Assembly: GCF_014196925.1 (NCBI RefSeq)
Contig: NZ_JACIEN010000003.1
Span: 496,001-560,000 of the forward strand
DNA: 64,000 bases
Direction of reading: 5' to 3'
Origin: Chelatococcus caeni
Lineage (GTDB): Bacteria; Pseudomonadota; Alphaproteobacteria; Rhizobiales; Beijerinckiaceae
The position numbers and the translations under genes were made by a program. Numbering within the stretch: position 1 is the stretch's first letter; each line of letters begins with the position of its first letter. Shown here piece after piece: positions 6,033 through 57,588 of this stretch. The notes beneath the pieces were generated by a model. The model had not been told where the DNA came from. It was given only the letters and a program-made list of their open reading frames with translations, and ran no database searches.

Positions 6033-6039
6033 GCAAGCG

Positions 6040-6217
6040 GCAGTCGGCAGTCGAGCCGATCGCACGCCGTCGCTTCCAAGAGCAACCTCGTGTCCCGGGC
6101 GCATGCAGCGCAAGCGGAATGCGACCCGGGACCCAGCACAAGAATCTGCCGAAGGCACCTTAGGATGGGCCCGGATGCACCGCAGCATTTCATGCCGCGG
6201 TGCATCCGGGGAACGAG
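6040..6217. repeat. Dispersed intergenic repeat, family A, copy 1 (two hairpins)
   Basis: It fills most of the 306-base gap between the UbiK-like gene and the MFS gene. A related copy lies at 27941-28130. The first hairpin (6093-6131) pairs TCCCGGGCGCAT with ATGCG/CCCGGGA. The second (6170-6210) pairs CCCGGATGCACCGC exactly with 6197-6210 and continues inward as GCAT/ATGC around a TTC loop after one mismatch. Both copies contain the segments GCAGTCGGCAGTCG, CGCATGCAGCG and GCCGAAGGCACCT. No open frame is conserved between copies, so this is a non-coding palindromic repeat. The remainder, 6218-6338, shows nothing recognisable. Confidence 0.8.
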
Positions 6218-16758: not shown

Positions 16759-19023
16759 TTATCGCCCGTCCGTCTCGTGGAAGAAATCATAGACGAGTCG
16801 CGCGGTGGCGGCATTGATCCCGGGCACGCGCTGCAGGTCGTCGAGCGAGGCGCGCGAGACGGCCTTCGCCGTGCCGAAGTGGTGCAGCAGCGCCCGCTTG
16901 CGCGCAGGGCCGACGCCGGCGATCTCGTCGAGCGGATTGCGGCCGATGTCGCGCTTGCGCTTGGCCCGGTGGGTGCCGATGGCGAAGCGGTGCGCCTCGT
17001 CGCGCAGGCGCTGGATGAAATAGAGCGCCGGATCGCGCGGCGGCAGGCGGAAGGGCTCGCGCCCGGGGATGACGAAGGTCTCGCGCCCGGCATCACGATC
17101 CGCTCCCTTGGCGACGCCGACGAGCGGCACGTCCGTGATGCGGAGCTCGGCGAGCACCTGGCGCGCGGCCTCGAGCTGGCCCTTGCCGCCGTCGATGAGC
17201 ACGAGGTCCGGCCAGGCGGGAAAGGCTTCGTCCTCATCCCTGTCCGTTTCCGGCGGGAGGTCCGGAAGGCCGGGCGCGACCTGATCCTCCCCCACAGGGG
17301 GAGGTGGCGGCCGCAGGCCGACGGAGGGGGCCTGCGCGGGCGCCGCAGAGAGCACCCCACCCGTCTCGGTCCTTCGGACCGATCCACCCTCCGCCGGAAC
17401 TCGGGCTTGCCCGAGTTCCGCACTTGTATGCGCAAGTCGGGAATACCCGACTTGCGAAGGGGAGGGATCGGCACCTGTCTGCTCGAAAATGCCCGGCTCG
17501 TCCGCCTCCCCCCGCGGCGCTTCCTTCAGCAACCGCGCGAACCGCCGCTGCATCACCTCGCGCATCATGCCGTAGTCGTCGCCGGGCGTGAGGTCCTGCG
17601 AGCGGATGTTGAAGGTGCGGTAGTGGCTCTTCATGAACCCGTCCGCGCCCGCGACGATCATGGCGCCGACGGCGTTTGTGCCGGAGATGTGCGAGTTGTC
17701 GTAGACCTCGATGCGCCGCGGCGCCTCGGCAAGGCCGAGCGCCTCGCCCACCGCGGCGAGCAGCTTGCGCTGCGAGCTCGTGTCGGCCAGGCGCCGGCCG
17801 AGGGCCTCGCGTGCGTTCTGCGCCGCATGCGCCACAAGGTCGCGCTTCTCGCCGCGCTTCGGCGCCGCGATCTCGACGCGCTGGCCAGCGCGGGCCGACA
17901 GGGCGTCCACGAGCAGGTCGCGCTCGGCCGGCTCGTGCGAGACGAGCACGAGCCGCGGGCACGGCTTGTCGTCGTAGAACTGGGCGATGAAGGAGGTCAG
18001 CACCTCCTCCGGCGGCAGGCTCTTGTCGGCTTTCGGGAAATAGGCGCGGTTGCCCCAGTTCTGGTGATTGCGGAAGAAGAATACCTGCACGCAGAACTGC
18101 CCGGCCTGCTCGTCGAGCGCGAAGACGTCCGCCTCCTCGACGCCCTGGGGGTTGATGTCCTGGCTCGTCTGCACGGCCGACAGCGCCGCGAGACGGTCGC
18201 GGTAGCGGGCCGCGCGCTCGAATTCGAGCGCCTCGGAGGCCGCCTGCATCTCGCCCGCCAGCATCTCCTTCACCGCGCTGGAGCGGCCGGAGAGGAAGCC
18301 GCGCGCCTCCTCGACGAGATGGCCGTAATCCGCGAGCGATATCTCCCCGGTGCACGGCGCCGCACAGCGCTTGATCTGGAACAGCAGGCAGGGGCGCGTG
18401 CGGTTCTCGTAATAGCTGTCGGTGCAGGTGCGCAGGAGGAAGGCGCGCTGCAGGGCGTTGACGGTGCGCGTCACGGCCCCGGCATTGGCGAAGGGGCCGT
18501 AGTAGTTGCCCTTGCGCGTGCGTGCGCCCCGGTGCTTGACGAGCTGCGGCGCCGCGTGGTCGCCGGTGATGAGGATATAGGGGAAGGACTTGTCGTCGCG
18601 CAGCAGCACGTTGTAGCGCGGCCGCAACTGCTTGATGAGGTTGGCCTCGAGCAGCAGCGCCTCGGTCTCCGTCTGCGTGGTGACGAATTCCATGGCCGCC
18701 GTCTCGGCGATCATCCGCATGGTGCGGTGGCCGCCGTGGCCGATGCCGCGCATGTAGTTGGCGACGCGCTTCTTGAGGCTGCGCGCCTTGCCGACATAGA
18801 GCACGTCGCCGGCGGCGTCGATCATGCGATAGACGCCGGGGCTGTTGGGCAATGTCTTCCAGAAATCGCGGATGACCTCGGCGCCGGCGCGCACGGAGGC
18901 GGGCGCATCGGCGACGAGATGCTCGATCTCGCGCAGTTCGCCCCCGTTCTCGCCCACCTCCACCAGGACAGCCTCGTCCTGCGGCGCGGGCCCCCTTCCA
19001 CTCTTCGAGTCGTCCGCCGTCAT
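16759..19023 (-). CDS. uvrC: Excinuclease ABC subunit C, with in-frame repeat insertion
   Basis: UvrC makes both incisions in nucleotide excision repair. The protein is 754 residues, against about 610 for E. coli. Order: an acidic N-terminal extension of about 50 residues, GIY-YIG nuclease ([20 protein letters not shown]), a Cys-rich segment ([14 protein letters not shown]), a UVR helix pair ([16 protein letters not shown]), the RNase H-like nuclease ([17 protein letters not shown] and, later, [15 protein letters not shown]), and C-terminal HhH motifs. Residues about 519-581 are a non-family insert encoded by a family B repeat (17283-17469). It falls before [11 protein letters not shown], in a loop that is short and variable in relatives. 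All catalytic motifs survive, so the protein may work. First gene of the uvrC-pgsA-moaD-moaE direction. Confidence 0.94.
17283..17469. repeat. Family B palindromic repeat inside uvrC (copy 1)
   Basis: A 187-base element with GATC at both ends. Its last 105 bases (17365-17469) match 21718-21822 with only about three differences by eye. It holds consecutive hairpins: GGTCC/GGACC, ACTCGGGC/GCCCGAGT, and CGCAAGTCGGG (17431-17441) with CCCGACTTGCG (17446-17456). On the uvrC strand it is open in frame and encodes a Pro/Ser/Gly-rich, probably unstructured peptide containing [19 protein letters not shown]. The other two copies in the window are intergenic. Confidence 0.85.
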
Positions 19024-21618: not shown

Positions 21619-21822
21619 GATCCTCGCCCTCGAGGGGGAGGTGGCGCTGCGAAGCAGCGACGGAGGGAGACACGCAACCGCATTGTGCGCGTCGTTCCCG
21701 TCCTTGACCCCGCCCGTCTTGGTCCTTCGGACCGATCCACCCTCCGCCGGGACTCGGGCTTGCCCGAGTTCCGCACTTGTATGCGCAAGTCGGGAACACC
21801 CGACTTGCGAAGGGGAGGGATC
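21619..21822. repeat. Family B palindromic repeat (copy 2), intergenic
   Basis: It lies in the 536-base gap between prs and the M24 protein gene and is bounded by GATC. Bases 21718-21822 are nearly identical to the uvrC copy, including the three hairpins; the left part is diverged and slightly longer (about 204 against 187 bases overall). The rest of the gap (21340-21618 and 21823-21875) shows no gene; the prs promoter should lie in 21340-21470. Confidence 0.8.
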
Positions 21823-27939: not shown

Positions 27940-27940
27940 G

Positions 27941-28130
27941 GCAGTCGGCAGTCGGCGGAATTGCAGACCGCCGCCGCCAGGCACAACCTCGTTTCCCGGA
28001 CGCATGCAGCGAAGCGGAATACGCGCCGGGAACCAGCCCATGAATCGGCCGAAGGCACCTATCACCCAAGGTGAATAAGCCCCGGATCAGCACCGCAGCG
28101 TTTCATGCTGCAGTGCATCCGGGGCACGAG
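27941..28130. repeat. Dispersed intergenic repeat, family A, copy 2
   Basis: It fills most of the 265-base gap between ychF and the endonuclease V gene. First hairpin: TTCCCGG/CCGGGAA around 27992-28032. Second hairpin (28080-28124): CCCCGGAT/ATCCGGGG, then GCAC/GTGC and GCAGC/GCTGC, around a GTTTCAT loop. It is diverged from copy 1 in the spacer but matches in blocks, and paired positions tend to change together, as expected if the fold is kept. Confidence 0.8.
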
Positions 28131-57444: not shown

Positions 57445-57588
57445 GATCCCTCCCCTTCAGGGGAGGGTGGATCGCGCCGAAGGCGCGAGACGGGTGGGGT
57501 CAAGGCTGGGAACGACGCGCGAGTTTTCAGCCGATGGCCCCCTCCGTCGCTGCTTCGCAGCGCCACCTCCCCCATACGGGGGAGGATC
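57445..57588. repeat. Family B repeat (copy 3), intergenic, reverse orientation
   Basis: It lies in the 313-base gap between the SDR and ABC genes. GATC at both ends; the outer parts match the reverse complement of copies 1 and 2 (GATCCCTCCCCTT at the left, GGGGGAGGATC at the right, GAGACGGGTGGGGT inside). It lacks the segment with the two longest hairpins that copies 1 and 2 carry, which suggests that segment was inserted into an older element. No gene is seen in the remaining gap. Confidence 0.75.

Follow-up and report, generated by a model that had tools for sequence, protein, structure and literature searches.

We examined a 64,000-nucleotide stretch of the Chelatococcus caeni genome (hereafter, the window), in which uvrC occupies positions 16759–19023 of the minus strand. 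The gene is intact. Its reading frame runs from 19023 to 16759 with no stop, and the product of 754 residues carries GIY-YIG, UVR, RNase H-like and HhH domains (Pfam) and scores above the cut-offs of NCBIfam models TIGR00194 and NF001824. A palindromic element of 187 nt is embedded in the coding sequence at 17283–17469; on the plus strand it starts with GATCCTCCCCC and ends with GGGGAGGGATC, and on the minus strand it encodes UvrC residues 519–581. It sits in a hypervariable linker (17212–17529, minus strand, residues 499–604) placed between a helix and the strand PDLVLIDGG. The original prediction described an insert of about 63 residues at this position, free of stops and frameshifts; the coordinates map there by arithmetic, the frame is open across all 754 codons and the domains downstream are complete. 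The uvrC copy has no stop in any of the six frames, its codon-usage score is negative in all six, and on either side of it the uvrC frame gives a coding score. Folded in the uvrC direction, segment 17280–17475 has a z-score of -6.45, and none of 200 shuffled sequences was equally stable.

Comparison of copies resolves two elements. A is built of several hairpins and measures about 144 nt, with terminal 11-nt stretches whose complementarity averages 80%; B is about 60 nt long, has two hairpins and is seated inside A in some copies. The uvrC copy is an A with B close to one end, B taking up 17396–17455 of the plus strand (GGAACTCGGG..CCCGAGTTCC, a spacer, then GCAAGTCGGG..CCCGACTTGC). A second full A, in which B has the same position, lies at 21619–21822 (plus strand; intergenic by coding score), and a third, devoid of B, at 57445–57588 (minus strand), still within the window. 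The near-identity first noticed between the uvrC insert and 21718–21822 is real, but the length of 105 bases given for it was too short: the match covers 116 nt at 97% identity (17354–17469 against 21707–21822). The uvrC copy is mosaic, with its left part nearest to a copy at xdhB (89%) and its right part nearest to 21707–21822.

A strict pattern finds at least 29 full copies of A in the retrieved stretches of the C. caeni genome, the uvrC copy included; this is a lower bound, as copies with altered ends escape the pattern and, of the 102 candidates of the genome search, 40 were scored. With the same 40 scored, the search returned 52 matching pieces at E<=1e-3, self included and some copies falling into several pieces, and the best non-self place for the uvrC copy reached E 1.8e-49. 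Most copies (22/29) are 127–150 nt long, and the remaining ones carry B-like units.

B-like two-hairpin units occur at three places in A, apparently hairpin loops, in the copies at C2:282261-282586 (L005) and C1:1062161-1062487 (L006). They are also found outside A in the same genome (L015, L018, L030, L168), flanked by other stems of the CCCCTC/GAGGGG type. The window holds a separate dispersed repeat of 72 nt as well, at 6039–6110 and 27940–28011, the two copies being 78% identical. By eye, the seats of B look like hairpin-loop positions of A. Loop-guided insertion of B finds no support in flank pairing: over 14 places (including one misparse), the flanks pair with a mean of -19.2 kcal/mol, against -19.1 kcal/mol for mismatched flanks.

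Among close relatives the element is unevenly distributed. With the uvrC copy as query, 16 matching pieces were found in C. sambhunathii (G001) and none in C. albus (G002) or genome G003 at E<=1e-3. An ordinary A copy gave strong matches (E <1e-29) only in C. caeni, and weak ones in three other genomes, among 40 family genomes that comprised G003 and left C. sambhunathii and C. albus aside. A is nearly confined to C. caeni and C. sambhunathii among the genomes searched.

If the insertion is recent, sister species should lack it at uvrC, and all three do. Their linkers count 54 residues in C. sambhunathii, whose UvrC is 94% and 91% identical to ours on the two sides, 25 in G003 (93% and 91%) and 43 in C. 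albus. The DNA directly outside the element also differs between the uvrC genes of C. caeni and C. sambhunathii, so that the comparison yields no clean empty site; C. sambhunathii may have lost the element or may never have carried it. C. sambhunathii uvrC shares a 10-nt match with the element end, and the local alignment scores no better than shuffled sequences (p 0.23).

In-frame copies elsewhere in the genome, which the original prediction proposed to look for, do exist. A strict test, requiring that either side show coding signal and an open frame, is passed by two of the 29 full copies, in uvrC and in a formate dehydrogenase-like alpha subunit gene; just these two are also open in all six frames. 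The latter gene is named from a partial reading (best NCBIfam model TIGR01591, below cut-off) and encodes Pfam molybdopterin oxidoreductase domains. Its C. sambhunathii counterpart is free of the element, matching residues 1–165 and 237–730 with three bases between; the upstream DNA is 95% identical, and bases outside the element differ as well. A third in-frame A, overlooked by the strict test, lies between the two halves of a double-ATPase ABC protein. It is common to C. caeni and C. sambhunathii, where the open frame spans 614 aa, against 566 in G003 and 570 in C. albus. Two further candidates were not counted as internal copies: in phnJ (PF06007) A forms a C-terminal extension unmatched in C. 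sambhunathii, and at xdhB it stands upstream of the gene or at its N-terminus, also in C. sambhunathii.

Two other genomes were sampled. In G017, 3 of 20 repeat places, taken from the top of 74 matches, are in frame in genes (mfd, acyl-CoA ligase and biotin carboxylase by best NCBIfam model, all partial readings). In Ancylobacter (G043), none of 20 repeat places is in frame inside a gene. The three genomes together give 5 in-frame copies within genes out of 69 examined. The G017 mfd gene (L212, C109:75535-77657) belongs, like uvrC, to nucleotide excision repair, and the uvrC of that genome has a repeat too.

How A moves was approached through its class. It is short and dispersed, has terminal inverted repeats and, judging by the coding score of the uvrC copy, does not itself look like coding sequence, all of which is characteristic of MITEs. 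The target-site duplication that also defines MITEs was found in none of the 29 copies at any length from 2 to 9, assuming ends GATCC..GGATC. A search with PF01797 found no Y1 transposase (RAYT) in the four Chelatococcus genomes and was positive in 5 of 14 control genomes; mobilisation by a RAYT was rejected on this ground. Because neither the duplication nor a Y1 transposase was found, the mobility of A is deduced from its dispersal. No Rfam family reaches its gathering score within the window. BIMEs are pairs of hairpins with a short spacer, and B has this very layout, but the RAYT expected alongside REP/BIME elements is absent from the four genomes. RIMEs are mosaic palindromic elements of Hyphomicrobiales (rhizobia), as A is a mosaic palindromic element in Hyphomicrobiales; the likeness is one of description.

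Palindromes that code for protein have been described above all in Rickettsia and Wolbachia and sporadically elsewhere; the C. caeni insert and the linkers described below extend them to other alphaproteobacteria. According to the review PMC2229807, Rickettsia elements measure 105–146 bp and 19 protein genes contain them in frame; a guanylate kinase carrying one is active, its affinity for the substrate being altered. The C. caeni element shares with them, and with Wolbachia counterparts named in a title that PMC10969869 cites, a palindromic build of about 105–150 nt with terminal inverted repeats, dispersal, and presence both between genes and in frame in unrelated conserved genes, where the peptide is apparently tolerated (PMC2229807, PMC10969869). 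Most other copies of A have no coding signal through them. As originally suggested, then, the insert works like a Rickettsia palindromic element, the resemblance being one of description. Our case differs in its Hyphomicrobiales host, in having fewer in-frame copies (2/29 under the strict test, which overlooks one more), in the nested second element and in the several repeat families gathered at one protein site. ERIC-like, Neisseria and Coxiella elements (ERIC/RU, NEMIS, QMITE) are likewise small mobile repeats with open frames that fuse in frame within genes, according to PMC2759123, PMC2229807, PMC10969869 and PMC5896051. They belong to other hosts, whereas here a core repair nuclease is affected; ERIC and NEMIS also have a target-site duplication, as tabulated in PMC2229807, which is not seen here.

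We then turned to the UvrC linker across alphaproteobacteria. UvrC was read at all 130 fetched loci, C. caeni and duplicates included and several genomes with a match left aside; a UvrC match was absent in 3 of the 41 genomes searched. A single open frame crosses the linker at every one of the 130 loci. The 108 distinct sequences have hypervariable linkers of 16–168 residues (median 39), and in three solved UvrC structures 2–5 residues are unmatched at this site. Since many of the long linkers looked like translated repeats, linker DNA was searched against the genome it came from. Matches elsewhere in the same genome were found at E<=1e-6 for 15 of 22 linkers, that of C. caeni included; the 14 positive relatives, out of 21, are G041, G017, G042, G043, G044, G045, G046, G048, G049, G050, G052, G013, G014 and G055. 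For G044, G014 and G055 the matches are short stretches of about 26–57 nt. The other seven (G047, G018, G051, G053, G037, G026 and G054) had no match at this threshold, the best for G051 being 1.8e-6; with 27–38 candidates scored per genome out of up to 438, such misses are weak evidence. The 21 relatives were picked for linker length and repeat-like look and are thus a non-random sample, with nine other linkers of at least 60 residues outside it. The threshold was fixed after the control had been seen. In that control, conserved uvrC stretches of 180 nt from 11 of the positive genomes returned 17 matches other than self with no E value under 2.8e-5, 28 candidates having been scored in each genome. 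Folding was discarded as a test for repeats and kept only as a lead, because control stretches fall below a z-score of -3 as well (4 of 108, against 9 of 108 linkers).

Among the matches listed, several repeat families appear at the site; some are common to different genomes, G041 and G050 for instance sharing one, and linker segments also matched repeats of other genomes in the same search. Carriers belong to Hyphomonadaceae, Xanthobacteraceae, Bosea, Chelatococcus and other lineages. On a FastTree phylogeny computed with the linkers left out, the 22 tested rows call for 7 state changes, gains or losses, of which 6 are forced by starred branches, and the repeat label is not clustered relative to the tested negatives. 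Taking untested rows as repeat-free, all 108 rows call for 13 changes. These counts point to more than one event. A metagenome-assembled genome that groups with Hyphomonadaceae on the tree (Alphaproteobacteria bacterium 32-64-14, L124) carries in its UvrC linker about 88 residues of an AcrB-type transporter (PF00873, E 2.3e-12). Altogether, at least 15 of the 108 distinct sequences have a repeat in uvrC, some of them related by descent. By a rough reckoning from tens of copies and several thousand genes, any given gene would be expected to carry one in well under one percent of genomes.

The predicted structure agrees with a permissive site. AlphaFold2 run on 31 UvrCs gives a mostly confident fold (mean pLDDT 75.5), and a fold search with the UvrC model returned known UvrC structures and nothing new. 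Residues 506–598, between helix 485–501 and strand 607–611, have pLDDT <50. The linker is therefore predicted to be unstructured; where sequence varies this much, a low pLDDT is consistent with disorder but is no proof of it. This model and the few unmatched residues of the solved structures support the suggestion that UvrC tolerates a disordered loop at this position between its RNase H motifs.

Selection on the linker appears to be weak, at least in Bosea. In pairs L075, L076 and L078, linker omega is 0.85, 0.54 and 0.48 against 0.07, 0.06 and 0.06 in the rest of the protein; the pairs involve three species and are non-independent, and the repeat match was tested for L075 and L076. A frame that is kept while its peptide drifts suggests low constraint, as tolerance predicts. 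Element copies shared by C. caeni and C. sambhunathii behave otherwise: 1 of 40 synonymous sites changed in the ABC gene copy (L208/L209) and 2 of 38 in the xdhB copy (L182/L183), the dS of the genes being 0.143–0.148. Over the 40 codons that precede the xdhB copy, dS is low as well (0.032). So little change, albeit in small numbers, speaks against plain neutral drift and could reflect exchange between copies or constraint on the DNA.

These data support the view that the uvrC insert is a dispersed palindromic element lying in frame and adding an unstructured loop. Chance similarity of GC-rich coding sequence is ruled out by the extent and E value of the match to other copies together with the fold z-score; counting in an assembly artefact, from which a negative codon-usage score in all six frames could also come, the probability of such an explanation is close to nil given the open frame and the complete downstream domains. 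We find it improbable, too, that the insert was kept for a gained function such as binding of DNA or of a partner by the linker. Binding to partners is possible for disordered segments rich in proline and glycine, and the linker frame is open at every locus read; yet the Bosea omega values run against such a role, and no common motif is visible by eye in the 108 linkers.

Two other accounts of the recurrence are unlikely, though less so. Elements might target the uvrC linker for its GC-rich, hairpin-prone DNA rather than for what the protein tolerates, as repeats in one gene across several lineages would have it; the seating of B at apparent hairpin loops of A makes hairpin-guided insertion conceivable, but its flanks pair no better than mismatched ones. 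Moreover, several repeat families and the non-palindromic AcrB-like piece have reached the same site, and other genes are also hit. Slightly less probable than targeting is a small number of ancient UvrC insertions that recombination with each genome's own repeats has since overwritten. The mosaic uvrC copy, the likeness of shared copies beyond that of the synonymous sites of their genes, and the fact that the counted tree changes may be losses all lean that way, but linkers of 16–27 residues are interspersed on the tree, and the closely similar UvrC of G003 has a short linker with no element in it.

We thus favour, with a probability of roughly 80%, a model in which non-autonomous palindromic elements land widely and the UvrC loop, tolerating in-frame inserts, collects repeats again and again. 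A would be a non-autonomous palindromic mobile repeat spreading through Chelatococcus genomes, and B a second element that landed inside it. A copy landing in a gene would persist only if it left the frame open in a protein able to accommodate one more unstructured stretch. In UvrC, the loop joining the helix and the strand that bear the two RNase H motifs would qualify: because it is predicted to be unstructured and is little constrained, it would have repeatedly gathered the dispersed repeats of each genome, once even a piece of another gene. That this loop is a recurrent acceptor, entered in frame many times by several repeat families, we likewise consider probable, if with slightly more reserve. 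The data themselves show that the insert is a repeat lying in frame and missing from close relatives, that dispersed repeats occupy the same site in other lineages, and that constraint is weak in one clade. From these we infer arrival of the C. caeni insert by transposition, production of an active protein, and tolerance, not targeting, behind the recurrence.

Elements of this kind are already known; what is new is the group of hosts and the recurrence at a single site. We found no report of UvrC as a site of repeat insertion in the open-access literature, a scope that most subscription papers fall outside. If the model is true, part of a core repair nuclease stems from selfish DNA, and the linker keeps a record, lineage by lineage, of the repeats that have been active. 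Insertions of different ages at a fixed place would form a natural series in which the fate of new protein sequence can be followed, in a nearly universal repair enzyme whose tolerance of loops lends itself to laboratory study.
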